Below are positions 2,700 to 49,100 of a DNA stretch of 64,000 nucleotides, one piece after another (the first letter of the stretch is position 1; each line of letters starts with the position of its first letter). Both the position numbers and the translations under genes were made by a program. The notes under the pieces were generated by a model that did not search any database, was not told the origin of the DNA, and was given only the letters and a program-made list of their open reading frames with translations. The stretch lies in contig JAFWES010000059.1 in NCBI GenBank assembly GCA_017512805.1, positions 141,421 to 205,420 of the forward strand, read 5' to 3'. The stretch is from Clostridia bacterium (lineage in GTDB: Bacteria; Bacillota; Clostridia; Christensenellales; Aristaeellaceae).

Positions 2700-2716
2700 G
2701 CTTTCCGTCTCCTTTA

Positions 2717-4976: not shown

Positions 4977-6353
4977 TTACCATTCCTTTATATCTTTCAG
5001 TTCCTTCCGGTAATCTTTATAGCAGAAGATCAGCGCGGCCATTGCTGACAAAACAGTGGTGACTGTGGCAGAGAAAACAATGCCGTACATTTTGAACAGC
5101 CAGTTCATCAGGAATACCAAAGGAATATAGATGATGCCCTTTTCCAGCAGGGATACGATAATGGCCTGCCTGGATTTTCCCGCTGCCTGGAGATAGGTCG
5201 TGCAGATCTGGTAAAAGCCAAAGAAGGGGCCGATGACGATGGAGGCGAACAGGCAGACGCGCCCGATTTCCAGCACGTCCGGGTTATCCAGGAAGGCGTT
5301 CAGCAATAGATCCCGGAAAATCAGGCACAGGGCGGACAAAACCGTTCCAGCCACTACGGCCAGGCCGGTGGTTTTCATCAGGATTTCCGTCAACCGCTGA
5401 TAGTTTTTCGCACTGTAGTTAAGGGAAATGGCAGGTTGCATGCCCATGCACACGCCCATGACCGTCATGGAGATCATCTGTCCAATACGCCCGGCTACGC
5501 TCTGCCCGGCCACGGCAATGGAGCCGTACTGCATCATCAGGTTATTGACGACGGTGCTGGATATGCTGCCCAGCACCGTTGCGCAGCTCATGGGTAGGCC
5601 CAGGCTGATCACCGTCAAGACAATCGCCTTTTCAAATGAAATATCCCTGGGAGATACGGAGTAAATCTTGCCCTTGGTACGCAGGAAGTAAACGTAATAG
5701 CACAGACTGACCACGTTGGCCGCCACTGTGGCGATGGCTGCGCCGGACACGCCCATGTTCAAAACGGAAATCAGCAGCGGGTCCAGAGCAATGTTCAGCA
5801 CCGTACCCAGCATGTTGCCGATCATGGAATCGGTGGTGGAGCCGTCAGCCCGGATCAGGGCGGGCACCACGTTGGTCAGCATGATCACCGGCGCGCCGAT
5901 GGCGATGACGCGCAGGTATTCGGCAGTAAAGCCCCGTGTTTCATCGTTTGCCCCCAGCAGATTGCAGATGGGCCCCATGAGCGGCAGCACCACGGCGGCA
6001 AAAACGACGCCGGTCACAATGGCGCCCCACACAGCAAAGGCGCTTATTTTTTTGATTTTGTCATATTCTCCCTTGCCAAGCGAAAGGGAGATGGCGGTAC
6101 AGCCACCATTTCCCAGCAACACACCCAAGCCGGATAAAATGGAAAACATGGGCGAGGCCAGCGTGACTGCCGCCACTTTGTTGGCGTCGCCGGTCTGGCC
6201 AATAAAGAACACATCCGCCATGTGATAGAGTACCATCACCAGCATGATCAGAATGGCGGGGATGCACAGTTTTCTTGCCAGCGTCCAAAAGCTGCCGGAA
6301 CGGAGCATTTCTTCATTGGCAGTCGCGCTGGAGGATGTCTGGTTGTGCTGCAT
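4977..6353 (-). CDS. MATE family transporter, first gene of leftward GH operon
   Basis: A 458-residue protein with about 12 hydrophobic segments and the MATE pattern (LARKLCIPAILIMLVMVLYHMADVFFIG, then TLASPMFSILSGLGVLLGNGG). I placed the start at 6353 because AGGGAGGA lies 6 bases upstream; a longer frame reaches 6401 but lacks a site and would start close to the proposed -10 box. MATE proteins export organic cations, drugs or metabolites using Na+ or H+ gradients. It heads a glycosidase operon under the same repeat-type promoter as the rest of the locus, so export of a sugar by-product or plant phenolic is possible but unproven. Confidence 0.9.
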   Translation of the reverse strand: MQHNQTSSSATANEEMLRSGSFWTLARKLCIPAILIMLVMVLYHMADVFFIGQTGDANKVAAVTLASPMFSILSGLGVLLGNGGCTAISLSLGKGEYDKIKKISAFAVWGAIVTGVVFAAVVLPLMGPICNLLGANDETRGFTAEYLRVIAIGAPVIMLTNVVPALIRADGSTTDSMIGNMLGTVLNIALDPLLISVLNMGVSGAAIATVAANVVSLCYYVYFLRTKGKIYSVSPRDISFEKAIVLTVISLGLPMSCATVLGSISSTVVNNLMMQYGSIAVAGQSVAGRIGQMISMTVMGVCMGMQPAISLNYSAKNYQRLTEILMKTTGLAVVAGTVLSALCLIFRDLLLNAFLDNPDVLEIGRVCLFASIVIGPFFGFYQICTTYLQAAGKSRQAIIVSLLEKGIIYIPLVFLMNWLFKMYGIVFSATVTTVLSAMAALIFCYKDYRKELKDIKEW

Positions 6354-6406: not shown

Positions 6407-6470
6407 ATTTTAAATGATCAGTCTTTTCCTGTCTTTTTGTTTTCCGATGCTTTTTTTCACAAATCCGACA
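6407..6470 (-). promoter_or_regulatory. Repeat-type promoter P1 (leftward MATE-GH3-GH1-GH43 operon)
   Basis: On the minus strand TGTCGG starts at 6470 and CATCGG at 6449, exactly 21 bases apart. The -10 hexamer TAAAAT starts at 6412, exactly 37 bases after the second repeat. No good -35 is present. The same spacing occurs at three other promoters in this locus. The -10 lies about 54 bases upstream of the MATE ATG. Two direct repeats two helical turns apart next to the -35 position fit an AraC-type activator dimer; YesN at 18862 is the likely protein (inference). Confidence 0.7.
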
Positions 6471-6493
6471 TGCGCCGGCATCCGGATGCACAA

Positions 6494-6557
6494 TGTCGGT
6501 TTTCTGTCATTTCGAGTCGGAAATCGGGAAGAAATCGCCGGAAGCGATTGATACAAT
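6494..6557 (+). promoter_or_regulatory. Repeat-type promoter P2 (yesL and rightward operon)
   Basis: TGTCGG at 6494, AGTCGG at 6515 (period 21) and -10 hexamer TACAAT at 6552 (37 from the second repeat). It is divergent from P1; the two outer repeats are only 24 bases apart, so both directions could be activated together. The -10 is about 33 bases before the yesL ATG. No recognisable -35. Confidence 0.7.
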
Positions 6558-6589
6558 ACAAACAGCAACCCGAAAAGGAGGAAAGAGAA

Positions 6590-7279
6590 ATGCAGCTTTT
6601 TAATCCGGACAGCAAGTTTTCACAGTTTATCTATTCACTGCTTGATTATATCAAGCTCGGGTTGGTATTCCTGCTTTTCTCCATTCCAGGCTTTACCGCT
6701 GGTGCTGCCGCAGCCGCTGTGATGACGGTGGGTATGCGGATTGAGCGAAAAGAAGCGCCGACTATCTTCCGCCCCTTTTGGCAGGCCTTCAAGGATAATT
6801 TCCGCCAGGGTACTATGCTGACGCTGCTGTTTATGCTGGTCTTCGGATTCCTGGCTGCAGACTGGTACATCCTGATGCAGATGGAAGGAACCCCGTTGAT
6901 CCGCCTGTTGTGCGCAGTAATCTTTGTGCTGGCATTGCTGACGGCGGCGCTGATGCTTTGGACATTTCCCACGCTGGCCCGGTTCCAACTGACCAACCGG
7001 CAGATCATTCATAACGCCGTCATTCATATGCTGTCCCGCTTCCCCCAGACGCTGTTGGCCCTGGCAGTTGCCGTGGGCGGCTTCATCCTGGCGGCGCTGT
7101 TCCCGCAGGTGATGCCTCTCATCACATTCTTTGTGCCCGCCTTTGTGGTCTGGTATATGTCCAGAACCTGTGTGAAACGTTTCCGCAAATTTGACGGAAG
7201 CAAGGAAAACGAAACTGAATGCCAGGAGTTCGAGCCGAACCGACAGGCAGACCCTGCAGAGTCTCTCGAGCTTAACTGA
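6590..7279 (+). CDS. YesL-like DUF624 membrane protein
   Basis: A 229-residue integral membrane protein with four to six hydrophobic segments (for example GLVFLLFSIPGFTAGAAAAAV near the N-terminus and TLLALAVAVGGFILAALFP near the C-terminus). The pattern matches the DUF624/YesL family, which in Bacillus accompanies YesM/YesN and Lpl-type ABC genes in rhamnogalacturonan utilisation clusters. The ATG follows AAAAGGAGGAAAGAGAA; a longer frame upstream would cover the P2 promoter and is rejected. Its function is not established in the family; a role in assembly or control of the importer is plausible. The GH43 gene follows after 20 bases. Confidence 0.85.
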   Translation: MQLFNPDSKFSQFIYSLLDYIKLGLVFLLFSIPGFTAGAAAAAVMTVGMRIERKEAPTIFRPFWQAFKDNFRQGTMLTLLFMLVFGFLAADWYILMQMEGTPLIRLLCAVIFVLALLTAALMLWTFPTLARFQLTNRQIIHNAVIHMLSRFPQTLLALAVAVGGFILAALFPQVMPLITFFVPAFVVWYMSRTCVKRFRKFDGSKENETECQEFEPNRQADPAESLELN

Positions 7280-7299
7280 CTGCGCAGGAGGAAAGAAAA

Positions 7300-9102
7300 A
7301 TGCCTTACTTTTGCAACCCTGTCAATGTAAATTATCGGTATCAGTTCAATTTGGATCAGCGCCAGGGCGGAAATATGAAAATCTGTCGTGAAGCGGCAGA
7401 CCCCTCCATGATCTGCTTTCAGGGTCGCTATTACATCTTTGCGTCCATGACCCTGGGCGTGTGGGTGTCGGATGACCTGGCGCATTGGCAAAACCATCGG
7501 CTTCCCCGGGAGCTGCCGCTGTATGATTATGCCCCTGACGTGCGTGTGATGGGCGAGTGGGTATATTTCTGTGCTTCCCGCCGGGATGAAAGCTGCGATC
7601 GCTGGCGCACACGGGATATTCTGAACGGGCCTTATGAAAAAACACCAGGTAACTTTCCCTTTTGGGATCCCAATCTGTTTATCGATGACAACGGCAGGGT
7701 CTATTTCTACTGGGGCTGCTCCAACGCCACCCCGATCTGGGGCGTGGAATTGGACGCGGAGACGATGCTTCCAAAGGGAGAAAAAAAGGTTCTGATCGAG
7801 GGACGTCCTTTTGAAATCGGGTTTGAGCGCTCGGGAGAAGATCACAGCCTTCAGCCTCTCGGACAGGAAGAGGCCGACGCGGAGATGCGGGCATTCCTGG
7901 CTGCCAGAGGCATGCGAGAGGATCAGATTCCGGATGACCGCAAGGCGATGATCCGAGGCATGTTCTCCAATGCGCCTTTCATCGAGGGCTCATGGATGAC
8001 AAAGCATGAAGACAGGTATTATCTGCAATACGCATGCCCGGGCACGGAATATAACATCTATGCCGATGGGGTCTATGTCAGCGACGGTCCCCTGGGTCCG
8101 TTCACCCTGGCGAAAAACAATCCCTACTCCTACCATCCCGGTGGTTTTCTGCCCGGCGCGGGCCACGGCTCCACCATGCAGGACCGGCAAGGGCAATGGT
8201 GGCATACGTCAACGATGCGCATCAGTGTAAACCATAATTTTGAGCGCCGTGTCGGCCTGTGGCCTGCGGGCTTCGACACAGATGGGGAGCTCTTTTGCAA
8301 CCAGCGTTACGGCGACTGGCCTATGGCCACGGATGGCGATCCCTGGCGGGACCCGGCCTGGATGCTTCTCAGCGTGGGGAAAGCGGCTTTTGCCTCCTCC
8401 TGCGCGGAAGGGCATGAACCGGCAAGAGCGACAGAAGAAGACGCGCGTACCTGGTGGCGGGCAGCAACAAACAGCCGAACAGAATGGGTGCAGGTTGATC
8501 TTGGAGCGGTCTATGATGTTCATGCCATTCAGGTCAATTTCGCAGATGACGGGATCAGTATTCCATGCCCTGTTCCGATGATGGAAGGCCAGGCTCGTCA
8601 TATTGAAGAAAGGGATCTGCAAACTCAATGGCGGCTGGAGGGCAGCGTGGACGGGGCAAGCTGGTTCGTCATCGAGGACAAGTCTGACGCTCGGACCGAC
8701 CTCTCCCACGATCTGGTTCTTCGGGAGAGCGGCTTCAAGGCCCGGCTGATCCGACTGACAAATATCGCCGTGCCATACGCCCAAAGCCCCTGCGTATCCG
8801 GCCTTCGCGTATTTGGCAGAGGTCACGGCGCAAAACCAGAGATTCCTTCTTTTACCGCCGCACAAACCGGTGAATTGGATATGGCTGTAACCATCCGCGA
8901 ACAGAAAAACACGCTTGGCTATAACATTCTCTTTGGCTCTGCCCCCGATAAGCTGTATCACAGCTATATGGTGTTCTCCGCAGGTGAAAAACGCATTGGC
9001 GCACTGGTAAAAGGCTGTCATTATTTTGTTCGGGTCGATGCTTTCAATGAAAGCGGAATAACGGAAGGAAGGTGCATTTCCCTTGAAAAAAACGATCTAT
9101 GA
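7300..9102 (+). CDS. GH43 family hydrolase with F5/8-type-C (discoidin-like) domain
   Basis: A 600-residue modular enzyme. The five-bladed propeller spans about 25-345, with likely catalytic base D34 (ADPSMI), pKa modulator D123 (WDPNLF) and general acid E229 (FIEGSW). Residues about 370-505 have the layout of an F5/8-type-C/CBM32-like domain (RTEWVQVDLGAVYDVHAIQV), and the last 85 residues look fibronectin III-like (GYNILFGSA ... YFVRVDAFNE). No signal peptide is visible. The family acts on arabinose-, xylose- or galactose-containing side chains; the exact linkage is unknown. AGGAGG lies 8 bases before the ATG. It overlaps the next gene by 20 bases, so the two are translationally linked. Confidence 0.88.
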   Translation: MPYFCNPVNVNYRYQFNLDQRQGGNMKICREAADPSMICFQGRYYIFASMTLGVWVSDDLAHWQNHRLPRELPLYDYAPDVRVMGEWVYFCASRRDESCDRWRTRDILNGPYEKTPGNFPFWDPNLFIDDNGRVYFYWGCSNATPIWGVELDAETMLPKGEKKVLIEGRPFEIGFERSGEDHSLQPLGQEEADAEMRAFLAARGMREDQIPDDRKAMIRGMFSNAPFIEGSWMTKHEDRYYLQYACPGTEYNIYADGVYVSDGPLGPFTLAKNNPYSYHPGGFLPGAGHGSTMQDRQGQWWHTSTMRISVNHNFERRVGLWPAGFDTDGELFCNQRYGDWPMATDGDPWRDPAWMLLSVGKAAFASSCAEGHEPARATEEDARTWWRAATNSRTEWVQVDLGAVYDVHAIQVNFADDGISIPCPVPMMEGQARHIEERDLQTQWRLEGSVDGASWFVIEDKSDARTDLSHDLVLRESGFKARLIRLTNIAVPYAQSPCVSGLRVFGRGHGAKPEIPSFTAAQTGELDMAVTIREQKNTLGYNILFGSAPDKLYHSYMVFSAGEKRIGALVKGCHYFVRVDAFNESGITEGRCISLEKNDL

Positions 9103-11203
9103 TCCCAAGCAGGATTCACGTTTCCAGCATCCGGTTATCGATCAGGATGAATGGAGAGAACGCTATCTGCCCGGCGGCGAAACCATTCCCTTCCGGTTCA
9201 TGCACGGCTGTTTTGAGGGAACGGATGTGAAGTTCGCCTTCTGCTTTCCACCGGCGGAGCGTTATGAAAACCGTTTTCAGCAGTATCTGTCTCCCTTCCC
9301 CGGTCCCGATGAAGAGGTAGCCTCTCTGGGGCATACCGGCACCGAGGACAGGATCGGCTTTGCCCTCAAATGCGGAGCATATTATGTGGAAACCAACATG
9401 GGCTCCCACTCCCAGTTCGGCGGCAACCGGGATGACAAGCTGACCTGGCAATCCTCCGCTGCGGCGGCGGAGTATTCCCGGGAAAAGGCCATGGAAATCT
9501 ATGAAACGGCCCAGCGGCCCTATGGCTATGTGTACGGCGGCAGCGGCGGCGGCTACAAATCCATGGCCTGCATCGAGAATACCTCCGCCTGGGACGGGGC
9601 TGCGCCCTTTGTCATCGGCTCTCCCGTGAGCCTGCCCAACACCATCACCATGCACGTGCAGGGACAGCGGGTGCTGCGAGATGCTTTTCCCAAAATTCTG
9701 GACGCCCTGGACGCGGGCGGCAGCGGCGACCCCTATAAAGAACTGAATCGGGACGAGGCGGATATGCTGCGGGAGCTGACAAGGATGGGCTTCCCTCCGC
9801 TGGCCTGGTATCTGGAGGCCAAGGGCGTCATCGATCCCGGCTCCCTGCCGGTGCTGATGCCCGGCGTCAAAAGAATGGATCCCGACTACTTTACCGATTT
9901 CTGGACCAAGCCCGGGTATGCGGGGGCTGACCCGGAAAGCTCTTCCTCCAAGGATCGCATTTACTTCAAAACCAAAGTTCATTCGGTGCATTTGGCTGAT
10001 AAGGCGGAAGCCCGCAGTGCGGAAAACGGCCTGAATGGCGTGGATGACGCCTGGAAAAAGCAGCTGGCCAATGGCAATGGCGCCTATCTCGAACTGGAGG
10101 CTCTGCCCCAGGGGGATCATCTGTACCTGGAAGGTCTTTCGATGATTTTTGAAAGTGGCGAGGCTACGGGTGCGAACCTGCTCATGGGCAAAATGATGCG
10201 TTATTCCGACCGCGACGGTGGCATCGTCACCATCGGTTCCGCCTACGGCACCAGCGACGTGGGAGAAACACTGGGGAAAGTGCGGCCTGGGGATGAAATC
10301 CTGCTGGATAATTCCGATTATATCGCAGCCCAGAGCTATTATCGCCACCAGGTGCCGGAGGATCTGTCCTTCCATGCCTGGGATCAGTTCCGCAATGCAG
10401 ACGGCACACCCAAAACGCCCCAGCGGAAGCCTTTCCCGGTGCCCTTTACCGGTGTGGGCGTGCGGCAGGATGGCGAAATTCAAGGTAAGGTCATCAACAT
10501 CCAAGCGCTAATGGACGAAAGCACGTGCCCATGGTGCGCCGATTGGTGGCGGAACAAGATCGTTGAGGCCAAGGGCAGCGACGCAGATCACCGCACCTAC
10601 TTTATGGAACGCTGCATGCACGGCGACGTGGCCGCCATCGGCAACTATATGGTGGTCAACTATGTGGGTGCTCTGCGGCAGGCGCTGATTGACCTGAGCA
10701 ACTGGGTGGAGAAGGGTATTGAACCCCTGAATCGTACCGCCTATACCCTGGGCGAAGACGGGCAGATTCATACGGAGCCCGATGTGAGCAAACGGTACGG
10801 CATTCAGGCGATCCCCACACTGAAGGCCAACGGCGAAAAGTGTACCCATGTAAAAGCAGGCGAGTGTGTGCGCTTCACGGTGGATGTTGAGGTGCCCGAA
10901 AACGCGGGCGACGTGACGGAGATCCTGTTTGCCCAGCAGGAAAAACAGCTTGCCGCTAAGGAAACCGAAACCAACGGCGCGGCCAGACTGATGCTGGGAA
11001 AAGAAATGTGGGATGGTGCACTGACCTTTATAAAAGGAGTCCGGGGGCAGGTACACACCGCGCACGCGGAAACCGTCTGTTCTTTTGATAAGCCCGGCAC
11101 ATACTTTGCCACCGTACGCATCGCTACCCAGCGCAATGGCGATGCCGCAGATCCATTTACCCAGGTGCTGAACCTGGATCGGGCGCGAATCATCGTAGAA
11201 TAA
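9083..11203 (+). CDS. Putative alpha/beta-hydrolase of unrecognised family, 706 aa
   Basis: I do not recognise this family with certainty. It has a nucleophile-elbow-like segment YGGSGGGYKS with candidate Ser154, preceded by YETAQRPYGYV, consistent with an alpha/beta-hydrolase core in the first half. The second half begins near residue 300 and contains GVRQDGEIQGKVI, CPWCADWW and a late beta-rich region. A TTG start is proposed: it lies 11 bases after GGAAGGAAGG and within the 3' end of the GH43 gene. No signal peptide. The position inside a glycosidase operon suggests a carbohydrate esterase or a tannase/feruloyl-esterase-like function, but this is inference. The large extra domain makes it much longer than typical esterases. 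Confidence 0.6.
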   Translation: MKKTIYDPKQDSRFQHPVIDQDEWRERYLPGGETIPFRFMHGCFEGTDVKFAFCFPPAERYENRFQQYLSPFPGPDEEVASLGHTGTEDRIGFALKCGAYYVETNMGSHSQFGGNRDDKLTWQSSAAAAEYSREKAMEIYETAQRPYGYVYGGSGGGYKSMACIENTSAWDGAAPFVIGSPVSLPNTITMHVQGQRVLRDAFPKILDALDAGGSGDPYKELNRDEADMLRELTRMGFPPLAWYLEAKGVIDPGSLPVLMPGVKRMDPDYFTDFWTKPGYAGADPESSSSKDRIYFKTKVHSVHLADKAEARSAENGLNGVDDAWKKQLANGNGAYLELEALPQGDHLYLEGLSMIFESGEATGANLLMGKMMRYSDRDGGIVTIGSAYGTSDVGETLGKVRPGDEILLDNSDYIAAQSYYRHQVPEDLSFHAWDQFRNADGTPKTPQRKPFPVPFTGVGVRQDGEIQGKVINIQALMDESTCPWCADWWRNKIVEAKGSDADHRTYFMERCMHGDVAAIGNYMVVNYVGALRQALIDLSNWVEKGIEPLNRTAYTLGEDGQIHTEPDVSKRYGIQAIPTLKANGEKCTHVKAGECVRFTVDVEVPENAGDVTEILFAQQEKQLAAKETETNGAARLMLGKEMWDGALTFIKGVRGQVHTAHAETVCSFDKPGTYFATVRIATQRNGDAADPFTQVLNLDRARIIVE

Positions 11204-11257
11204 GGATTTTGTGAAAGGCTGGTTTTTCCAGTCTTTCATTTTCAAAGAGGTAACAGA

Positions 11258-13507
11258 ATGTGGGAATCTGCGCAATGGATCAGGATTCCGCCGGACGAGC
11301 TGAAACAGAAGCAAATCTATCACGGTGATCTGGGCGGACGCTTCGCTTACTTCCGCTGCGAGCAGGCGCTGCCGGAGAAAGCCCATCTGACGGTCTGCCT
11401 CACGGCGGTATCCCGTTATCGGCTGTGGGTCAATGAACAGCCGGTGCTGTCAGGCCCCTGCAAAGGCGATCTGAATCGGCAGTATTATGAAACGGTGGAG
11501 CTGACACCCTATCTGCGGGCGGGAAAAAACGTGTTTGCCGTACAGGTGCTCTTTAACGATCCCGATGTCGCCCGGGATCAAACCGATGAAAGGGCGGCCA
11601 TCTACGGCGTGGTTGGCGCTGGCAATTGCCATTCGCTGGCAATGGAGGGAAGCATATTCGCTGGCGATGGGGAAATCATTGGTTCTGTTACCACAGGCCA
11701 GGCTGACTGGCGGGTGTGGCTGGACAGCAGCTTTTATCTGAAGTCCACGCAATGTTCCGTCTATCTTGGCGCAGTGGAGGAAAACATCGATTTTCGGCTG
11801 ACGCCCAGCGACTGGAAAACCGTCGATTTTGACGCATCGGCCTGGCGGCCCGCGATGCCCTATGGACCAGTGACCTTCTCAGCTACCTTCCAGAGCGTGG
11901 GACTGATCCCACGGGTGCACGTGATCCCCCGGGAAATCCCGCTGCTGGAGGAAAGGGAAACGGACTTTACGCGGATCATTTGCAGGGAAAACGATATTGT
12001 GCTGGATGCCGGAGTCCATGTGAATGGTTATCCGCGGTTCCTGTTTGACGGCGAAGCAGGAACAGAAATCACGATCACCTATTTGGAACGTTTCGGGGAC
12101 GGCATGGATGGGCAGCCCATCGATGATCTGAACGGCAGTGTTTCGGGCCGGGCCGATCATATCGTGCTGAACGGCAGCCCCCTACGCTATGAGCCCTTCT
12201 GGGTGCGTACCTTCCGTTATATCGTGATCCAGGGTGGACAGTTGTCGGAGCCGCCGACCTATCGAAAAACAGGGTATCCTTTGACAGTGGAATCTTCGAT
12301 CGCATCATCCGCTTCCTGGGTCAATTCGCTTTGGAATATCAGCCTGCGCACGCTGCGAAACTGCATGCTGGAAACCTACATGGATTGCCCGTACTATGAG
12401 CAATTGCAATTCATCATGGATACGCGGCTGCAAATGCTTTTCACCTATGCGGTGAGCAGCGATACGCGTCTGGCAAAGAAAGCGCTGCTGGACTTCCACT
12501 GTGGAATGCTGCCGAACGGATTGCTGCCGGGGAAGACGCCGACAGCTTATCTGCAAGTAATTTCTACGTTCTCCCTTCATTATGCGTTTGCTCTTTGGGA
12601 GTATGTGGATCATACGGGTGATCTGGATCTAGCCCGTAAATACCGCTCCGATGTCGACCGAATTCTGGATTGCTTCGATAGCAAGCGGGACAAATCCGGG
12701 CTGGTGGGAGCCATTGAACCCTGGGCTTTCATAGACTGGCAGGAAGACTGGAAAGAAACTGGCGGCGTGCCTCCGGCTTACTTTGAAGGTCCCAGCACCA
12801 TCATCAATCTGATGTATGCGTATGCCCTGGAATGTGGTGCAAAACTATATGAAGCAACGGGGCGCCCCGGTACAGCGAATGAGTACCGGCAGCGGCGGGC
12901 AGATATTCTTCAAAGGGTCAAGGAAAAATGCTTTGATCCAGATCAAGGCATGGTACGGGAAGGCCCGGAATGTCCTCAGTTCACCCGCCATGCACAGGCC
13001 TGGGCTGTGATCAATGGGATGCTGAACGAAAGGGAAAGTATCCGTGCGCTGAAATCCGCAATAAGCTGTCCTCCCTGCTCCTTTGCCACTTCCTACGAAT
13101 GGTTTCGTGCGCTTGAAAAAGCAGGTATGGAGGAACAGCTACGCTGGGATTTGGAGGCCTGGGTCAGCCTGAAAGACCGCGGCAGCACCACCTGCCCGGA
13201 AGAGCCGCACCATCCCCGCAGCGAGTGCCACGCCTGGAGCGCGCTTCCGCTGTATACGTTCATACACACGCTGGCCGGGATCCGGCAGGAAAACGGTGTC
13301 ATCGTAATCCGGCCGCATTTGCTGGGTTTTCCAGACCTTTCCGGTTCGGCTGCAACGCCTCTGGGAAATGTCCAATTTGTGTACAGGCGGACGGATGATG
13401 GCACATGGCAGTATCGGATCAGACTGCCTGAAAATGTGCATGGCTTGCTGATCATGCCATCAGATAAGCGGATTCCCTTTTCAGGAGAGCTCCGGTATGC
13501 GGAATAA
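11258..13507 (+). CDS. GH78-like alpha-L-rhamnosidase family protein
   Basis: A 749-residue protein with the GH78 plan: N-terminal beta-sandwich domains with lectin-like FAYFRCEQ ... YRLWVNEQPV (about 25-110), an (alpha/alpha)6 barrel, and a C-terminal beta domain. The conserved acidic loop is DCPYYEQLQFIMDTR (376-390), a variant of the usual DCPQRDERLGWTGD, with Glu381 at the catalytic-acid position. Such variants occur in GH78-related proteins and may have altered specificity. AAAGAGG precedes the ATG. A 54-base gap with a weak hairpin separates it from the previous gene. It probably removes terminal alpha-linked rhamnose from imported oligosaccharides. Confidence 0.8.
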   Translation: MWESAQWIRIPPDELKQKQIYHGDLGGRFAYFRCEQALPEKAHLTVCLTAVSRYRLWVNEQPVLSGPCKGDLNRQYYETVELTPYLRAGKNVFAVQVLFNDPDVARDQTDERAAIYGVVGAGNCHSLAMEGSIFAGDGEIIGSVTTGQADWRVWLDSSFYLKSTQCSVYLGAVEENIDFRLTPSDWKTVDFDASAWRPAMPYGPVTFSATFQSVGLIPRVHVIPREIPLLEERETDFTRIICRENDIVLDAGVHVNGYPRFLFDGEAGTEITITYLERFGDGMDGQPIDDLNGSVSGRADHIVLNGSPLRYEPFWVRTFRYIVIQGGQLSEPPTYRKTGYPLTVESSIASSASWVNSLWNISLRTLRNCMLETYMDCPYYEQLQFIMDTRLQMLFTYAVSSDTRLAKKALLDFHCGMLPNGLLPGKTPTAYLQVISTFSLHYAFALWEYVDHTGDLDLARKYRSDVDRILDCFDSKRDKSGLVGAIEPWAFIDWQEDWKETGGVPPAYFEGPSTIINLMYAYALECGAKLYEATGRPGTANEYRQRRADILQRVKEKCFDPDQGMVREGPECPQFTRHAQAWAVINGMLNERESIRALKSAISCPPCSFATSYEWFRALEKAGMEEQLRWDLEAWVSLKDRGSTTCPEEPHHPRSECHAWSALPLYTFIHTLAGIRQENGVIVIRPHLLGFPDLSGSAATPLGNVQFVYRRTDDGTWQYRIRLPENVHGLLIMPSDKRIPFSGELRYAE

Positions 13508-13523
13508 ATTCAGAAAGCCGACG

Positions 13524-13587
13524 TGTCGGAAATACCGTATTTTTTGTCGGAAATCATAAAGCGCTTTTTTCTGTGATTCGCTATCAT
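13524..13587 (+). promoter_or_regulatory. Repeat-type promoter P3 (solute-binding protein and permeases)
   Basis: TGTCGGAAAT occurs twice, starting at 13524 and 13545 (period 21, all ten bases identical). The -10 hexamer TATCAT starts at 13582, 37 bases after the second copy. The sequence at the expected -35 is AAGCGC, with no similarity to TTGACA, suggesting dependence on an activator. The -10 lies 60 bases before the binding-protein ATG. Confidence 0.75.
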
Positions 13588-13646
13588 GGATAGCATCAAG
13601 GGAGATATCCCTCCGTTCAGTCCATTCGAGAAAGGAGATCAAACCC

Positions 13647-15431
13647 ATGTCCATTCGCACAAAGTGGATTGCCTTGATGATCGCTGTAGTGGTCATGCTG
13701 GTCGGCATGCAGGTCTATTACAGCAACATCGGCGGCACCACCGGCCAGAGTGCATCTCCGGAAACCACCTTTGACTGGTGGATCTATTCCGGCACCTCCT
13801 CGGAGTATTATGGCAATTACGCCGAGAACCCTGCGGTTCAGTACACGCTTCGCCGCGGCTGGGGCCCGGAAGAAAAGGGAATCGCCCTCAATTTCCTGCA
13901 GCCCCCGCCTGGCTCCGAAAATGACAACTACACCACCATGATCGCCTCCGGCGACCTGCCGGATTTGATCGACGCGGTTATCTGCGAACCGCCCCGCATC
14001 ATGGTGGAAAAAGGATACGGCATAGAGATCACCGATTATGTGCTGGCCAACATGCCCAATTATGTGGCGCTGGTGCATTCCAATCCGGTCTATTTCAATA
14101 ATGCCGTCAGCGTGGATGCCAATGGAAACGAGCATTATTACGGCCTGACCAATCTGCAGGACGATTATAACGCGGTGTTCCAGGGCTACATGTACCGCCG
14201 GGATTGGATCGTGAAATATGGAACTAACCCGACCACCGGCGCTGCTTTCACCGGCGGCTATACTGATCCCGCTGACGCGGACAGCTGGGTGGACGATGTG
14301 GTGTTCCCCTCGGGCGGAACCGATCCCAAGTACATCTCCGACTGGGAATGGATGTTTGAGATCTTTACCCGCGCGCAGGCCGATCTTGGAATCAAGGATA
14401 AATACTGCATGAGCCTGTATTATCCCGGTTTCACCTGGTCTGGAGGCCTCCTTTCCTGCTTCGGCGGAGGCGTCAACGTGTGGTATCAGGATGCCGAAAA
14501 CAAGGTGCACTTCGGCGGCAACGAGGAGCCCTTCAAAACCTACTTGCAATGCATGCACGCTTGGTATGAAAAGGGCTGGCTGGATCACGACTTCAATCAA
14601 CGCACCTCCGATTCTTTCTTCCAGATAGATTCCACCTCCGTGCGCCAGGGCATGATCGGTATGTGGAACGGCCAGCAGAGCGAACTGGGCGGCCGGCTGG
14701 ATATGCATGATGGCGGATACACCGAGGGCATCTTTGTGGCCGGCGCAGCCTATCCCATCAACGATATGTATGGCCCGGAAAGCTGCCGGAACGTGCCGCC
14801 GAACTGCGTGATGGGCGGCGAGCTGACCGGCGGCGGCGTGATCATTACGCCTACTGCCAAGGATAAGGACCTGGCCGCCCTGTGCAGTTACCTGGATTAC
14901 TTCTATTCCGAAGAAGGCGCGCTGATCCGCACCCTGGGCCTCAGCGCTGAACAGGTGGCGGACTTTTCCGAAAACACCTTCTATGCCAGCAATGGCCTGA
15001 GCGATGGCGCTTATTTCATCAACAGTGAAGGCAAGTACGAAAAGAGCAATGTGCTGGTGACAGACAGCGGTCAATTGAACACCGCAGTAGGATTCAACAA
15101 AGCGCCCGGTCTGCTGTTGGTGAAAAACGTGGATCTTGGTTATGCCGATACCTATCAGGCTTCTCTGGATCGATGGCTGCTGTATCCCAACACCGGTTTC
15201 TTCCAGGGCACCCGCACCACCAACGAGATGACGCAGGCGGACAGCAAAACCTGTGATGACATCCGCGCCAAGGTGCTGGAATACATGACCAAGAACTGTG
15301 CCAACTTCATCACCGGTCAGAGCAATTTCGACAAGGATTGGGACAAGTGGTGCACGGTACTGAAAAAGTATAAGATCGACAGCATCACAGAGATTTATCA
15401 GTACTATGTGGACAATTATCCCTTCCGATAA
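13647..15431 (+). CDS. LipO-like extracellular solute-binding protein, N-terminally anchored
   Basis: A 594-residue type-1-like binding protein, long as in the LipO/LplA group that works with LplB and YtcP permeases. The N-terminus has positive charges, one hydrophobic stretch (about 7-25, IALMIAVVVMLVGMQVYY) and no lipobox Cys and no clear signal-peptidase I site, so it is probably held in the membrane by an uncleaved anchor. The mature part has Trp/Tyr-rich segments typical of sugar sites (TFDWWIYSG, GFTWSGGLL). AAAGGAG precedes the ATG. It lies directly after P3 and 19 bases before the first permease, and should capture the oligosaccharide produced outside the cell. Confidence 0.9.
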   Translation: MSIRTKWIALMIAVVVMLVGMQVYYSNIGGTTGQSASPETTFDWWIYSGTSSEYYGNYAENPAVQYTLRRGWGPEEKGIALNFLQPPPGSENDNYTTMIASGDLPDLIDAVICEPPRIMVEKGYGIEITDYVLANMPNYVALVHSNPVYFNNAVSVDANGNEHYYGLTNLQDDYNAVFQGYMYRRDWIVKYGTNPTTGAAFTGGYTDPADADSWVDDVVFPSGGTDPKYISDWEWMFEIFTRAQADLGIKDKYCMSLYYPGFTWSGGLLSCFGGGVNVWYQDAENKVHFGGNEEPFKTYLQCMHAWYEKGWLDHDFNQRTSDSFFQIDSTSVRQGMIGMWNGQQSELGGRLDMHDGGYTEGIFVAGAAYPINDMYGPESCRNVPPNCVMGGELTGGGVIITPTAKDKDLAALCSYLDYFYSEEGALIRTLGLSAEQVADFSENTFYASNGLSDGAYFINSEGKYEKSNVLVTDSGQLNTAVGFNKAPGLLLVKNVDLGYADTYQASLDRWLLYPNTGFFQGTRTTNEMTQADSKTCDDIRAKVLEYMTKNCANFITGQSNFDKDWDKWCTVLKKYKIDSITEIYQYYVDNYPFR

Positions 15432-15450
15432 GCGATAGGAGGTGTGAAAC

Positions 15451-16407
15451 ATGGCAAAGCGTAAAAATTTCGATCTGGCTGCCTCCACACGCCGAAGCTG
15501 GAAGGCGGAGCTCAAGCGCGACTGGGTGGTCTACCTGCTGTTTGTGCCGATCATCGTGTATGAGATCGTTCTGCACTATCTGCCGATGTTCGGCATCGTG
15601 ATGGCCTTTGAAGATTACAACGTCGCGGACGGCTACTTCCACAGCCCGTGGGTGGGCCTGAAGCACTTCATTGATCTGTTCAGCGGTGAAGACTTCCTGC
15701 AGGCCATCCGCAACACCGTGGTCATCGGCGTGCTGCGCGCCACCATCGGCTTTGTGGCCCCCATCATCTTCGCACTGATGCTGAGCCTGATCAATTCAAA
15801 GAAATTCAAGCGGACCGCGCAGACCATGTCCTACATGCCCAACTTCGTGGCTGCGGTCATCGTTTGCTCCCTGTTCACCCAGTTCCTGGCCAAGGACGGC
15901 CCCCTGACGCTGTTCCTGACCAATGTGTTCGGGGCGGAAAACCAGAACTGGTTTGCCAACGACAAGGCCCCCGTGTTCTGGATCATTTACGTCCTGATGG
16001 GCATCTGGCAGGGCATTGGCTGGGGATCCATCATGTATGTGGCGGCGATCTCCCAGGTCAGCGGTGATTTACACGAAGCAGCAGCCCTGGATGGCGCAAC
16101 CCGCATGCAGCGGCTGTTCAAGATCACCCTTCCTTCCATCCTGCCCATGATCCTGATGATGTTCGTGATCAACGTGGGAACCGCCCTGGCCGCGGGCTAC
16201 GACAACATCCTGCTTCTGTACATGCCCAGCACCTACAAGGTGGCAGACACGGTGTACACCTACACCTATCGTCAGGCATTCGGCGGCGGCAACAGCAATT
16301 ACTCGCTTTCCGCGGCTTCCGGCCTGTTCCAGTCACTTGTTTCCACAATCCTTCTGGTGGGTTCCAACGCCCTGTCGCGTAAAGCCGCCGGAAGCAGCCT
16401 GTTCTGA
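15451..16407 (+). CDS. ABC transporter permease, LplB/YteP type
   Basis: A 318-residue membrane protein with six predicted transmembrane segments. The cytoplasmic EAA loop for ATPase contact reads EAAALDGATRMQRLFKITLP. The N-terminal LKRDWVVYLLFVPIIVYEIVLHYLPMFGIVMAFEDYN is typical of the LplB/YteP group that imports complex oligosaccharides. GATAGGAGGTG precedes the ATG. No ATPase gene is in the window, so a shared MsmX-type ATPase elsewhere is likely, as is common for these systems. Confidence 0.93.
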   Translation: MAKRKNFDLAASTRRSWKAELKRDWVVYLLFVPIIVYEIVLHYLPMFGIVMAFEDYNVADGYFHSPWVGLKHFIDLFSGEDFLQAIRNTVVIGVLRATIGFVAPIIFALMLSLINSKKFKRTAQTMSYMPNFVAAVIVCSLFTQFLAKDGPLTLFLTNVFGAENQNWFANDKAPVFWIIYVLMGIWQGIGWGSIMYVAAISQVSGDLHEAAALDGATRMQRLFKITLPSILPMILMMFVINVGTALAAGYDNILLLYMPSTYKVADTVYTYTYRQAFGGGNSNYSLSAASGLFQSLVSTILLVGSNALSRKAAGSSLF

Positions 16408-16421
16408 GAGGAGGGATCACC

Positions 16422-17333
16422 ATGGCAAGAAAGCAAAGGAAAAAGGAAGAATGGGAAAACAACATGGTGGAGACCAAAACCATCGCGGACAGGATTGTGG
16501 ACGTGATCGTGTATCTTTGCGTAGCGCTGGTAGCGCTGTGCAGCGTGCTCCCTATGTGGCATGTGCTCATGTCCTCCTTCTCGGATGGTAAATCCCTGCT
16601 GGCCCATGTGGGCCTGGTTCTATGGCCTGTGGGTAGCTTCACGCTGGACGGTTACTCCCTGATCTTCCAGAACGCCAGTATCGTGGGAGGCTATATCAAC
16701 ACCATCATCTATACGATCAGCTTCACAGTGATCGGTTTCCTGCTGTCCGCAGTCACGGGCTATGCCCTGAGCCGGGACACGAAACTGAAAAAGCCCGTCA
16801 CCATGGCGCTAATGGTGACCATGCTCTTTGGCGGCGGTATGGTGCCCACCTACATGATCATTCGGGCTTTGGGCTGGGTGGGTACGCCCTGGGCGCTGGT
16901 CATCCCGGGATGCACCAACAGCATGTACTGCATCATGATGATGAACGCTTTCAACTCTATCCCCAAGGAAATGTACGAGGCCAGCCACATCGACGGCGCG
17001 GGGCATCTTTCCACCTTGTTTGAAATCACACTGCCCCAGGCCATGAACATGGGTAGCGTGATCATCCTGAACCTGGCGGTCGGCCAGTGGAACTCCTGGC
17101 TGCAGGCTTCCATTTATGTGCCCAACAAAAAGGCTTTGTGGCCCCTGCAGCTGGTGATCCGCCAGATCACCTCCGAGAACGCCGACTTCCTCAATTCCTC
17201 CAACCCCAACTACGCCCGTTATCTGATCCAGTTCGCGGTGATCATCGCGGCCATCGCGCCTATCATTATCGCTTTCCCCTTCTTCCAGGACAAAATGGAG
17301 AAGGGCGTCATTCAGGGCGGCGTCAAAGGATAA
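16422..17333 (+). CDS. ABC transporter permease, YtcP type
   Basis: A 303-residue membrane protein with six predicted transmembrane segments, the second permease of the importer. The EAA loop is YEASHIDGAGHLSTLFEITLP. The C-terminal FFQDKMEKGVIQGGVKG is characteristic of the YtcP/LplC group. It begins 14 bases after the LplB-type stop with GAGAGGAGG upstream, and a strong terminator follows at 17349, so binding protein and two permeases form one unit. Confidence 0.93.
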   Translation: MARKQRKKEEWENNMVETKTIADRIVDVIVYLCVALVALCSVLPMWHVLMSSFSDGKSLLAHVGLVLWPVGSFTLDGYSLIFQNASIVGGYINTIIYTISFTVIGFLLSAVTGYALSRDTKLKKPVTMALMVTMLFGGGMVPTYMIIRALGWVGTPWALVIPGCTNSMYCIMMMNAFNSIPKEMYEASHIDGAGHLSTLFEITLPQAMNMGSVIILNLAVGQWNSWLQASIYVPNKKALWPLQLVIRQITSENADFLNSSNPNYARYLIQFAVIIAAIAPIIIAFPFFQDKMEKGVIQGGVKG

Positions 17334-17348
17334 TCAACGACGGCTTTC

Positions 17349-17380
17349 AACGGCTTGCGCATCGGCGCAAGCCGTTTTTT
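17349..17380 (+). terminator. Rho-independent terminator after the importer genes
   Basis: A perfect 12-bp stem (AACGGCTTGCGC / GCGCAAGCCGTT) with loop ATCG, followed by a T run. It separates the ABC genes from the two-component genes. Confidence 0.92.
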
Positions 17381-17404
17381 CTATACAAAATCCGTGTTTT
17401 CGTG

Positions 17405-17410
17405 TATAAT
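17405..17410 (+). promoter_or_regulatory. Probable -10 of the yesMN promoter
   Basis: A consensus TATAAT at 17405 lies 40 bases before the kinase ATG and after a strong terminator. The -35 at 17-bp spacing (TATACA) is weak. It gives the regulator genes a promoter separate from the repeat-type promoters, as expected if YesN activates those. Confidence 0.5.
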
Positions 17411-17449
17411 GAAAAAAGAACGACTCTCTTTCCCGGGAGGGATTGACCG

Positions 17450-18865
17450 ATGAAATCTCTTCAGATGTTCAAGGGTTGGTTCTGGAGCCATGAATGCTTT
17501 CGTCGCCTGCGGCCCAGGCTCATGACGATGATCCTGGCCCTGGTGCTGCCCGTTTGCCTGATCTGTGTGGTCATCTCCGTCATTTCCATTGTGCAGAGCC
17601 GCGAGCTGACCTATCAGATCGGGAATAACGGACTGTCGTCGTTTCTGAAAACAGCGACACTTCAGTTTAAAGCGGACAGCTGGGATCCTCTTACGGATTT
17701 TCCTGCCGGAATATCCCAAAAATTCAGCCATTTCCATGCTTATGTGGAAGCGAATAACGGGAAAGTATACGTGTCCCTGAATGGCAGCCAGGCCTTTTTG
17801 CTGTCAAATGACGGTTCTTATACCGAATCTCCGGAAGAATTTGAAGCGTTAAGGAAAAACCCTTATAAATATGAATGGCAGGGGGAGGAGCTGCCTTTTC
17901 GGGTTCTGGTTACCTTCCCGTATCATTTTGCACTGGTTCATGTGCCTTTTGTCCTTTGGATCGGTTTGATTATCTCCATGGCCACGCTGATGCTCAGCCC
18001 GTTTTTGTACAAACGGCTCCGCCTTGACATCCTCCAGCCCATGGACACGCTGCGGAATGCAATCGACACGCTGGGAACGGACAGTTCTTACCGGATTCCG
18101 CCGCAATCCGGAAAAATCAGCGATGATTTTCTGATGATTTTCGATGACTTTAACCGGATGGCTAAAGAAATTCAGGCTTCTCACGAAAAAGACATCAAGC
18201 TCCTGGAAACCGAGATGGACAATCTGCGCCTGCAGGTGAATCCACACATGCTGCTGAACTCTTACAACACAATTTATGCCCTGGCGGAAAGTAAAAACTA
18301 TCCCGTAATCCAGGACTATACGCTGTGTCTGGTGGATTATTTCCGCTATGTGCTGCGCCGGGGCCAGCAGCTGGTGACGGTTCGGCAGGAGCTGGAATTT
18401 GTGAATAATTTCATCCGCATTCAGCGCATCCGTTTTCCGAGCCGCTTTTCCTATGTATATCAGGCCGAAGAGGAATGCCTTGCCGCCCGGATCCCGCCGC
18501 TGCTGATTGAAAACTTTGTGGAAAACGCCATCAAGTACGCGCTGGAGCCCAGGGAAGCCATCGAAATCGTGGTCTCCGTGCGGAAAGAGCAGAATAGGAA
18601 CGGAAAGGATGCCCTGCACATCGCCATTACCGATACGGGCAGCGGCATCCTGCCGGAAGTGCTGGAAAAGCTGAAGGCCCGCGAACCCTATATAGACGAA
18701 AGCGGGAAAAAGCATATCGGCATCTATAATTGTCTGCGGCGAATCGAGCTGTTTTATGGGGAAGAAGGAGAGGTGAATTTTTCCAGCGAAAAAGGAAAAG
18801 GGACGCAGGTCTACATGGTGGTGCCATTTCTTGCATCGGACAATGAAGAAGAGGAGCGTACATGA
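17450..18865 (+). CDS. YesM-type sensor histidine kinase
   Basis: A 471-residue membrane kinase. TM1 spans about 25-47, a short extracellular part about 48-158, and TM2 about 159-187, followed by a HAMP-like region. The phospho-acceptor is H266 in LQVNPHMLLN (family form NPHFLYN). The ATPase domain shows IENFVENAIKYA (N box, about 353-363) and DTGSGI (395-400). The family senses extracellular oligosaccharide or a loaded binding protein and phosphorylates a YesN-type regulator. It is shorter than many YesM proteins because the sensor loop is only about 110 residues. The stop overlaps the yesN ATG by 4 bases. Confidence 0.93.
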   Translation: MKSLQMFKGWFWSHECFRRLRPRLMTMILALVLPVCLICVVISVISIVQSRELTYQIGNNGLSSFLKTATLQFKADSWDPLTDFPAGISQKFSHFHAYVEANNGKVYVSLNGSQAFLLSNDGSYTESPEEFEALRKNPYKYEWQGEELPFRVLVTFPYHFALVHVPFVLWIGLIISMATLMLSPFLYKRLRLDILQPMDTLRNAIDTLGTDSSYRIPPQSGKISDDFLMIFDDFNRMAKEIQASHEKDIKLLETEMDNLRLQVNPHMLLNSYNTIYALAESKNYPVIQDYTLCLVDYFRYVLRRGQQLVTVRQELEFVNNFIRIQRIRFPSRFSYVYQAEEECLAARIPPLLIENFVENAIKYALEPREAIEIVVSVRKEQNRNGKDALHIAITDTGSGILPEVLEKLKAREPYIDESGKKHIGIYNCLRRIELFYGEEGEVNFSSEKGKGTQVYMVVPFLASDNEEEERT

Positions 18866-19632
18866 ACATCTTGATTGTGGACGATGAACAATTCGCTATC
18901 CAGGGAATGCTGGATGGCATCAACTGGGATATGCTGGGCTTTGACAAGGTTTTGACAGCCTGCAGCTATGAAGAGGCCGTGAGCATCGTCAAAAAAACCT
19001 ATGTGGATATCCTTGTCAGCGATATTGAAATGCCGGGTGAAAGCGGGCTCAGGCTGATCGCTTACATGAACGAGCACAGCGCGAATACGGAATGTATCAT
19101 TTTGACCTGTCATGACGAATTTGACTATGCTCAGACTGCTGTGCGCCTGAACTGTATGGAATATGTACTCAAGCCTGTCCGGTATCAAAAGCTTACCGAG
19201 ATCCTTCTTCGGGCCAAGGAGAAGGTGAATCAACGGCGGCAGAATGAACAGATCCGCCAATACGGGCAGCAGTTTATTGATTCTCTGGCGAAGGAAACAA
19301 AAGGAGACGCAGTGAACGCGCTGGAAATGGCTGTAGGGTACATTGACAGCCACCTGGCGGAGGAGCTTTCCGTTCGGGATTTAGCCACGCTGTGCTATGT
19401 GAGCGCGGATCACCTGACCCGTCTTTTCAAGAAAAAATACGGCATGACTGTTTCGGAATACATTCAGGAGAAGCGCATTCGCCTTGCCGGAGAGTTGCTG
19501 CAGCGGGAAGATCTGACCATTTCCATGGTCGCCAACACGGTGGGCTTCGGCAATTATTCCTACTTTACCGAACAATTCAAAAAACACTATGGCATGACGC
19601 CCCGGGAGTATCAGAAGCAGATCCGCAAGTAG
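18862..19632 (+). CDS. YesN-type response regulator (REC + AraC HTH)
   Basis: A 256-residue two-domain regulator, compact compared with YesN proteins of 500 residues because the middle region is missing. The receiver domain (1-120) has the acidic pair D7/D8, phospho-acceptor D54 in LVSDIEMPG and Lys in VLKPV. After a short helical linker the AraC-type double HTH covers about 155-256 (LCYVSADHLTRLFKKKYGMTVSEYI, then GFGNYSYFTEQFKKHYGMTPREY). ATG overlaps the kinase stop. It is the likely protein for the four 21-bp direct-repeat promoters of this locus (inference from proximity and the type of site). Confidence 0.94.
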   Translation: MNILIVDDEQFAIQGMLDGINWDMLGFDKVLTACSYEEAVSIVKKTYVDILVSDIEMPGESGLRLIAYMNEHSANTECIILTCHDEFDYAQTAVRLNCMEYVLKPVRYQKLTEILLRAKEKVNQRRQNEQIRQYGQQFIDSLAKETKGDAVNALEMAVGYIDSHLAEELSVRDLATLCYVSADHLTRLFKKKYGMTVSEYIQEKRIRLAGELLQREDLTISMVANTVGFGNYSYFTEQFKKHYGMTPREYQKQIRK

Positions 19633-19638
19633 CATTCA

Positions 19639-19702
19639 TGTCGGATCAGCAGGATTTTTCATCGGATTTCATACAGCATTTTTCCTCCGCCAATGGCATA
19701 AT
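19639..19702 (+). promoter_or_regulatory. Repeat-type promoter P4 (secreted unknown protein)
   Basis: TGTCGG at 19639, CATCGG at 19660 (period 21), -10 hexamer CATAAT at 19697 (37 bases after the second repeat). The ATTTTT before the second repeat and the TCATA after it are shared with P3. The -10 lies 78 bases before the ATG at 19780. This is the only support for placing the unknown secreted protein in the regulon. Confidence 0.7.
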
Positions 19703-19779: not shown

Positions 19780-20844
19780 ATGAAAAAAGCGATCGCCCTG
19801 CTGCTTTGCCTGGTCCTGACACTTTCACTGGCTGCTTTCGCTCAGGCGGAAGGCGAAGTACCCAACCTGGCTGGCACCTACTATTCCTACGGCTATGATG
19901 TGGGTACCATGTTCATGAATTACTATATCCACTTTTACGATGAGATTCCCGGCCTCGGCAAAGTATTCCACGCCGGCATGTGCATGGATCAGATCACCTT
20001 TGACGGCACCTATGAAGTGATCGCCGAAGAGCGAGCCTACAGCGTGGCCATGGACCGCGCCGCCAGCGAAGCGGGCACCATGACCGAAGCCACCGCTCCC
20101 TATACCGTGGTTTTCTATGATTTCGACGGCACGGAAATCGACCGCTGCGCCATGGACGCCGAGCATATTTACAATGACATGGCTGCAATCACCGGCGTGG
20201 GCGGCGACCACTGTGCCCTGAACCTGGACACCGACCCCGAAAACAGCAAGTTCGCCGCCCAGTATGCCAGCGAGCCCGCTGTGGAGCTGCTGAGCCTCAT
20301 CAATCCTGATGACGACACCGCGACTCTGAAGCTCAAGGTCAACGGCAAGTATGAGGACCTGATTGTCTTCTTCGTGGAAGGCACCTATGCCATGAATGCT
20401 GATCAGACCGAAATCACCCTGACGCCTGATTCTGAGAGCGATGAAGGTGCGAAGGTGACCAAGAATGAAGACGGAACCTACACCTATGTTTCCGACAGCG
20501 GTGAAGAAGTGGCGCTGGTGGAAGTGAAGCCCGTGGAAGTGGCCTATGCTCTGAAAGGCGAAATTCCTGTGCCCGGCATGGAAGGAACCAACGCCGAGTT
20601 CATCTGCAATCTGCTGAGCGACAACACGGTGCAGCTGTATGCCGACTTCATGGGCAACAAAATGGATGTGGACAAGGGCACCTATGAGATCGACATGACT
20701 ACTTATTCCTTCATCATTCACTTCGAGGCTGCTGGCGATCTGACCACCGAAGGCTATGCCGCCGATATGGTGCTCAACTACAAGGTGGACGATGTGCAGC
20801 CCTTCGGTGCCATCGAACAGACCCTGAAGTTCGTGACGGAGTAA
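19780..20844 (+). CDS. Secreted protein of unknown function, 354 aa
   Basis: I do not recognise this protein. It begins with a clear signal peptide (MKKAIALLLCLVLTLSLAAFAQA) with a signal-peptidase I site after AQA and no lipobox. The mature chain is acidic and beta-rich, with two GTYE/GTYA-type strands segments suggesting repeated small beta-barrel or lipocalin-like units: an N-terminal one (about 24-170) and a second one (about 245-354) after an Asp/Glu/Thr-rich middle. It has its own repeat-type promoter P4 and AAGGAGG, stands alone between the two-component genes and a terminator, and so is probably an induced cell-surface or extracellular protein of this locus. A substrate- or product-binding role is possible but not shown. 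Confidence 0.8.
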   Translation: MKKAIALLLCLVLTLSLAAFAQAEGEVPNLAGTYYSYGYDVGTMFMNYYIHFYDEIPGLGKVFHAGMCMDQITFDGTYEVIAEERAYSVAMDRAASEAGTMTEATAPYTVVFYDFDGTEIDRCAMDAEHIYNDMAAITGVGGDHCALNLDTDPENSKFAAQYASEPAVELLSLINPDDDTATLKLKVNGKYEDLIVFFVEGTYAMNADQTEITLTPDSESDEGAKVTKNEDGTYTYVSDSGEEVALVEVKPVEVAYALKGEIPVPGMEGTNAEFICNLLSDNTVQLYADFMGNKMDVDKGTYEIDMTTYSFIIHFEAAGDLTTEGYAADMVLNYKVDDVQPFGAIEQTLKFVTE

Positions 20845-34854: not shown

Positions 34855-34883
34855 ACGCATGAAAATACAGGGAGGTGCAGACC

Positions 34884-35310: not shown

Positions 35311-35400
35311 ACAGGAGGTGGTTCGCGCCCTGCAAGTTTGCTTGGGGGTTCATCTCTCGACATATTCGATCCAATCCCAGTTTGTCGATGGCCGATTATC

Positions 35401-49051: not shown

Positions 49052-49100
49052 CCGGGCCATAGAAGACCGAAACGGAAAGGGGTTGTTTCGGTACAAAGAA

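Follow-up and report, generated by a model that had tools for sequence, protein, structure and literature searches.

How are the genes of a plant-polysaccharide locus turned on together? The DNA analyzed here, a 64,000-nucleotide window from a Clostridia bacterium of the family Aristaeellaceae (contig C17 of a 3.07-Mb draft genome, 87.8% complete, in 93 contigs), carries such a locus at positions 1 to 34854. The initial annotation described a direct repeat shared by four promoters, P1 to P4, and a YesN-type regulator encoded nearby, which raises the question of whether this protein acts at the repeat. We consider it very probable, judging from the sequence, that P1 to P4 are operators of a two-component activator dedicated to the locus, formed by the kinase YesM and the response regulator YesN, in which tandem half-sites stand in for the -35 hexamer.

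A direct repeat at four promoters

The pattern TGTCGG-N15-NNTCGG, with a period of 21 bases, was present at all four places as annotated, and in each case 37 bases separate the start of the second copy from that of a -10-like hexamer. The sites and the genes assigned to them (GH, glycoside hydrolase family) are as follows.

6407-6470, minus strand: P1, with TGTCGG at 6470, CATCGG at 6449, an AAAG-like box and the -10 TAAAAT at 6412-6407; taken to drive MATE-GH3-GH1-GH43
6494-6557, plus strand: P2, with half-sites at 6494 and 6515 and the -10 TACAAT at 6552-6557; taken to drive yesL and the hydrolase genes after it
13524-13587, plus strand: P3, with half-sites at 13524 and 13545 and the -10 TATCAT at 13582-13587; taken to drive an ATP-binding cassette (ABC) importer
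19639-19702, plus strand: P4, with half-sites at 19639 and 19660 and the -10 CATAAT at 19697-19702; probably drives the GH43/GH140/GH3/GH78/GH2 run behind the first gene downstream, the P4 open reading frame (ORF)

The annotation had judged this arrangement unlikely by chance, and this was borne out by the exact sites, their location, the shared -10 offset and a matrix from relatives. The exact pattern matched four times in the window, always between genes by the gene starts used and never in coding DNA. Order-2 Markov simulation of non-coding sequence gave a mean of 0.027 exact matches, and four were never reached in 2,000 runs; since the non-coding mask included about 1.8 kb of coding frames (1-1434 and 35493-36204), this test should be conservative. 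Periods from 10 to 44 other than 21 gave at most two non-coding matches each in the window. Offsets from 20 to 100 other than 37 placed a -10-like hexamer at threshold in at most one promoter each, and four random non-coding anchors shared an offset for such a hexamer 0 times in 200,000 draws, the score threshold of 5.3 having been chosen after the scores of P1 to P4 were known.

Across the draft genome, the exact pattern occurred 12 times, at P1 to P4 and at eight scattered places. The -10 scores were 5.4 to 6.7 at P1 to P4 and at most 3.6 at the scattered matches. The latter sit in stop-free frames of 202 to 842 amino acids, which is a weak criterion, as P1/P2 also overlap an open frame of 299 amino acids and P4 one of 183.

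The site and its targets in relatives

We built a matrix from 15 relatives' sites, each sharing less than 75% identity with every site of the window. In the window it scored P3 at 43.1, P4 at 41.1, P1 at 28.3 and P2 at 27.4 bits, and the next place reached 3.9 bits; the ten letters set by the pattern account for 18.4 bits of each score. Across 63 other loci, amounting to 2.17 Mb with both strands included, the same matrix gave at most 19.7 bits. At the 28 positions outside the fixed letters, P1 scored 10.0, P2 9.1, P3 24.7 and P4 22.8 bits, and the eight scattered genomic matches -16.5 to -44.5 bits.

Exact sites numbered 36 in 17 named loci whose YesN orthologues are 75 to 99% identical. From the named loci, the window and further genome loci we obtained 41 distinct 64-mers, or 29 non-redundant sites at less than 88% identity; the two sets of relatives' loci overlap and their counts are not additive. 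TGTCGG and TCGG were prescribed by the search pattern and do not count as evidence of conservation, and the period of 21 is likewise part of the pattern and not independent, so that information comes from the remaining letters, the site positions and the controls. Among the 29 sites, conservation was high over both half-sites, fell to near zero across about 12 bases and rose again at the -10. The A after the second TCGG was invariant (29/29), and an AAAG-like box (A at +15 in 29/29, G at +16 in 28/29) lay 13 to 16 bases past the start of the second copy, where it occupies the place of a -35. The conserved site is longer than the one initially described.

The best -10 offset was 37 in 20 sites and 38 in 4, a higher-scoring hexamer lying elsewhere in the remaining 5; a hexamer of at least 4 bits stood at offset 37 or 38 in all 29. 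The 37-base spacing, annotated as identical, holds at P1 to P4 and becomes 37 or 38 across species. Seven distinct inexact sites, for which the matrix stops short of the -10, also had a NANNAT hexamer at offset 37. With a spacer of 16 to 18, the match to TTGACA was at most 2/6 in 20 of the 29 sites and at most 4/6 in all of them.

We then considered which genes the sites precede. In the relatives' loci L021-L037, which are informative for site placement and not for high scores, a site of at least 28 bits lay upstream of the importer's solute-binding protein (SBP) gene in 15/15 cases, the P4 ORF in 17/17, the MATE gene in 7/7 and yesL in 4/4. The gene unk706 had one in 3 of 11 loci; these three, L027-L029, are the loci where no YesL was found and where unk706 follows P2 directly. 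In the same loci no site was found upstream of GH140 (0/16), GH3b (0/15), GH43b (0/11), GH78a (0/6), GH78b (0/11), YesM (0/16), YesN (0/17), permA (0/16) or permB (0/16). This tally omits genes whose upstream region is off the contig or whose start is unaligned, as well as GH1, GH3a and GH43a.

The importer gene offers a control within the family. SBP homologues were found in 27 of 308 family genomes, and the loci of orthologues (73 to 100% identity) carried a site of at least 32 bits in 23 of 23 cases, while none of the seven loci of paralogues (34 to 45% identity) did, their scores never exceeding -3.7 bits. The site tracks the orthologous SBP gene and not its paralogues. The matrix used here includes P3 sites and was hence trained on many of its own targets; the sites of L158, L164, L168, L170 and L174 are inexact and outside the training. 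L173, L174 and L180 are fragments, and one further SBP piece (G082) has no locus and was not counted. In L161 (G166:C17:7856-9637), the SBP orthologue contains one in-frame TAA and the P3 site is intact.

A strict motif, TGTCGGANNNNNNGNWTTTTNNNTCGGA, was derived from P3, P4 and their relatives. It matched 24 times in 16 of the 308 family genomes, the reversed control giving 0, and all 24 matches precede SBP or P4 ORF orthologues. A YesN orthologue (E <= 1e-60) was present in 20 of the 308 genomes, and motif and YesN occurred together in 14 (Fisher p = 7.6e-18). Neither the family-wide motif search nor the SBP search was selected by YesN. In the two genomes with the motif only, G119 and G217, the contigs end between the importer and the expected place of yesN; the contig of G230, which has the SBP orthologue and the site without YesN, likewise ends before that place. 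The annotation had proposed to test whether such hits precede sugar-use genes; in relatives the sites lie before SBP, MATE, YesL and P4 ORF orthologues.

Beyond the family, none of 362 genomes sampled from the order's other families contained the strict motif. Among 396 genomes of the order it was present in the window's own genome only, the other motif-bearing family members lying outside that draw. Allowing up to three mismatches, the strict motif matched this draft genome seven times and the reversed pattern four times; the seven are P2, P3 and P4 (P1 being missed) plus four others, no more than in the control. Regulon members outside the locus were not found in this search of the draft genome, and the regulon looks local to the locus.

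YesM and YesN as the candidate activator

The annotated YesN-type regulator was confirmed: YesN, 256 amino acids long and adjoining a YesM-type kinase, consists of a receiver and a C-terminal AraC helix-turn-helix (HTH) domain and has the usual phosphorylation residues. D7, D8, D54 and K104 do not vary among 14 aligned sequences, and the same holds for the majority of residues in the two HTH helices. The relatives of YesN with solved structures include receiver and AraC DNA-binding domains, among which is that of Escherichia coli AraC (2k9s). No other DNA-binding family was detected among the locus genes scanned.

The view of yesMN as a plain tail of the importer operon did not hold. The gap between the second permease gene and yesM contains a terminator-like hairpin with a T run and then an ordinary-type promoter, TATACA-17-TATAAT, without the repeat. 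We compared 15 such gaps, from the window and 14 of the loci L021-L037 (without L025, L028 and L029). All 15 have a -10 that differs from TATAAT by at most one base, a -35-like hexamer (mostly 4/6) lies 16 to 18 bases upstream of it, and the exact direct repeat is absent from all 15. Twelve of the gaps have a clear hairpin, and in L024, L026 and L031 it is weak. The position of hairpin and promoter is kept in relatives despite much sequence divergence. Because yesM is preceded by a hairpin and a promoter lacking the repeat, kinase and regulator are probably made constitutively.

From the sites, their spacing, conservation and target specificity, and their co-occurrence with YesN, we infer a model that also covers the binding of YesN and its phosphorylation, an activating and not a repressing role, the extents of the operons, the start sites and the signal. 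An oligosaccharide signal would most likely cause membrane-bound YesM to phosphorylate YesN on Asp54, and a phosphorylated YesN dimer would occupy both copies of the direct repeat, which are 21 bp apart. With the -10 placed at -12 to -7, the half-sites begin near -70 and -49, respectively, and the AAAG box lies at about -36 to -33. The downstream half-site would span about -49 to -33, the normal place of a -35, so that a promoter with a -10 and a poor -35 would depend on contact between YesN and RNA polymerase. This would amount to class II activation, as by AraC at pBAD. One activator may in this way turn on MATE/GH3/GH1/GH43, yesL with the side-chain hydrolases, the importer, and the P4 protein with the large hydrolase run, the basal supply of YesM and YesN coming from their own ordinary-type promoter. 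That the repeat is an AraC-type activator site used by the YesN of the locus, as first proposed, is supported by the gene content, the co-occurrence of motif and YesN, the tracking of the SBP gene and the geometry of pBAD.

Several observations count against this model or narrow its support. The genomes are related and many sites are orthologous copies, so that the counts are not independent events. The loci L021-L037 were gathered via YesN and also trained the matrix, which makes the synteny partly circular, and the ten pattern letters agree in relatives by construction, the pattern having been taken from the window. The strict motif is missing from six of the 20 genomes with YesN; each of these six has loci with an exact match to the relaxed pattern at P4. 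The P4 site of G203 is inexact. The annotated lack of a recognizable -35 stands as a generally poor -35 and is least clear at P1, where the weak -35-like hexamer AAGACA lies 17 bases before TAAAAT (sigma-70 match 9/12). The -35 of the yesM promoter itself reaches just 4 to 5/6 in most loci, and its contrast with the repeat promoters is moderate because it was chosen as the best in the gap. Furthermore, transcription from P3 could still read into yesMN, with possible autoregulation.

The repeat might instead be bound by a regulator encoded elsewhere, another AraC-family or two-component protein, YesN being a mere neighbor. The genome does contain other candidates (39 at first look, 17 of those scored). 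However, the strict motif follows the YesN of the locus through 308 family genomes and precedes SBP or P4 ORF orthologues in every one of its 24 matches, and the site is missing from all seven SBP paralogue loci; we regard this explanation as unlikely. Still less likely, in our estimate, is that YesN represses, its downstream half-site covering the -35 region and blocking polymerase until a signal releases it. The site does overlap the -35 position, but a repressed promoter normally retains a good -35, and the TTGACA match here never exceeds 4/6 in the 29 sites. Moreover, the geometry is that of the activating pBAD, and three of five Caldicellulosiruptor AraC-type two-component systems, with sites upstream of mapped promoters, are read as activators in the available text of PMC8579813.

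We give very little credence to a chance likeness of short GC-rich hexamers or to non-coding conservation of another origin, such as an RNA leader. With one mismatch allowed, the pattern was not significantly enriched in the window (9 matches versus 5.56 expected; 12 of 100 shuffles reached 9), and for this reason the signal rests on exactness, location and -10 distance. Against chance stand the exact sites, the common offset and the cross-species matrix, and the near-zero conservation between the second half-site and the -10 fits a bound operator and not a leader. The activator model, with P1 to P4 as YesN operators, remains the one that we favor.

A bolder and rather doubtful extension is that AraC-fold activators obey a fixed mechanical rule, the 21/37 layout, which would have stayed the same from enterobacterial AraC to a phosphorylation-driven YesN in gut Clostridia, and that the near-invariant AAAG box of the proximal half-site is a dedicated contact replacing the -35. 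If this rule were true, operators of uncharacterized YesN-type regulators could be read by geometry alone. We searched 66 distant AraC-type loci (L017-L020 and L038-L099) for a generic 21-bp repeat with a -10. Period 21 gave 27 raw matches and other periods 2 to 17; overlapping frames and related loci inflate these numbers, and no clear peak was seen for the -10 offset. Weak matrix matches in distant loci (L069, L060 and others) were dropped for want of a convincing -10 at 37.

The locus and its place among known systems

The gene content of the proposed regulon (MATE-GH3-GH1-GH43, yesL and hydrolases, the importer and a secreted-looking protein) is as initially described. The features are the following.

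1-1434 (continuing beyond the window edge), minus strand: GH43
1440-2720, minus strand: GH1
2717-4960, minus strand: GH3
4977-6353, minus strand: MATE transporter, with the ATG at 6353, 54 bases past the -10, taken as start
6590-13507, plus strand: a YesL/MusI-like DUF624 protein, GH43, unk706 and GH78, in that order
13647-17333, plus strand: ABC importer (SBP and two permeases)
13647-15431, plus strand: large SBP, with a PDB match to solute-binding proteins and no Pfam family
15451-16407 and 16422-17333, plus strand: the two importer permeases
17349-17376 and 17382-17410, plus strand: terminator-like hairpin and ordinary-type promoter TATACA-17-TATAAT before yesM, without the repeat
17450-18865, plus strand: yesM, sensor histidine kinase (Pfam His_kinase, HATPase_c)
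18862-19632, plus strand: yesN, response regulator with receiver and AraC-type DNA-binding domain (Pfam Response_reg, HTH_AraC, HTH_18)
19780-20844, plus strand: P4 ORF, 354 amino acids, with a signal-peptide-like start and no family; first gene behind P4
20936-34854, plus strand: GH43, GH140-like apiosidase, GH3, GH78, GH2, beta-lactamase-like and GH2-esterase genes, downstream of P4

An alternative, longer MATE frame from the TTG at 6401 would start at the expected transcription start. As to the sugar, the presence of a GH140-like apiosidase together with GH78 and GH43 points to pectin side chains; GH140 is associated with rhamnogalacturonan-II. The named relatives whose YesN is closest are uncultured Clostridia, and for several of them the samples are labelled goat, sheep or roe-deer gut.

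Two conserved proteins have no family. The product of unk706 (9083-11203, plus strand), 706 amino acids long, is 83 to 98% identical in 11 relatives' loci; it had no Pfam (window member), NCBIfam or significant PDB sequence match, and its GGSGGGY stretch resembles, in our reading, a serine-hydrolase elbow. The P4 ORF is 66 to 98% identical in 15 relatives' loci, is the first gene behind P4 in L021-L037 and gave no significant match in a PDB sequence search. It may represent a new secreted protein for sugar binding or sensing.

At the end of the hydrolase run, a 205-amino-acid frame (34875-35492, plus strand) contains only the Rha78A N-terminal Ig-like domain and looks like a truncated GH78 remnant. 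Further on, a second solute-binding protein gene, two permease genes, a GH88-like gene and two MATE genes lie at 48950-57110 without the repeat. TGTCGG also occurs three times on the minus strand at 63801, 63831 and 63897 (30 and 66 bases apart), outside the 21-bp pattern and in an unannotated stretch.

YesN-type regulators are common in gut Firmicutes, and their operators have seldom been defined. The available portions of three reports give no agreed consensus for XydR (PMC3572039), state that the system governing xuaABC and xynB yielded no conserved site (PMC12175519) and describe no clear repeat for the pneumococcal YesN (PMC11034029). A site with a target list, a spacing rule and built-in controls, namely the paralogues and the yesM promoter, makes one YesN-type regulon directly testable. 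It also links unk706 and the P4 ORF with a locus for the side chains of plant polysaccharides.

The closest geometric likeness is to E. coli pBAD. Measured on the K-12 sequence, at what we take to be the base positions of araI1, araI2 and the -10 (TACTGT), araI1 and araI2 are 21 bases apart and araI2 lies 37 bases from the -10, the same numbers as at P1 to P4. The half-site sequence differs, and AraC binds the sugar itself, whereas YesN is a response regulator. AraC also loops to araO2; here a distant site was sought only by a matrix scan of the window and L009. According to the available text of PMC4760080, AraC with arabinose on araI1 and araI2 recruits polymerase.

Systems of R. (Ruminiclostridium) cellulolyticum, XydS/XydR and CuaSR, are similar in pairing a kinase with a receiver-AraC regulator for plant polysaccharide genes, as far as the accessible parts of PMC3572039 and PMC10384115 describe them. 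They differ in that those parts report no agreed binding consensus, CuaR is longer (538 amino acids) and CuaS works with a solute-binding protein, CuaD. In Caldicellulosiruptor bescii, the accessible text of PMC8579813 places tandem-repeat sites before promoters for three of five AraC-type two-component systems, which it reads as activators; these, too, are local systems with an AraC domain, and BxgRS adjoins a sugar ABC importer. The regulators and organisms are different, and the likeness is known from the layout in that text and not from the motif letters. In Bacteroides, AraC-type hybrid two-component systems have direct-repeat motifs at a mean distance of 21 bp before polysaccharide-use operons, according to the part of PMC3878776 available, although kinase and regulator are fused there, the importers are of the SusC/D type and the phylum is another. 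The motif found here is not described in the literature searched, which comprised the available text of open-licence papers. In view of the direct-repeat precedents from Bacteroides and Caldicellulosiruptor, the regulon is new, while AraC-type direct-repeat operators, the kind to which it belongs, are already known.

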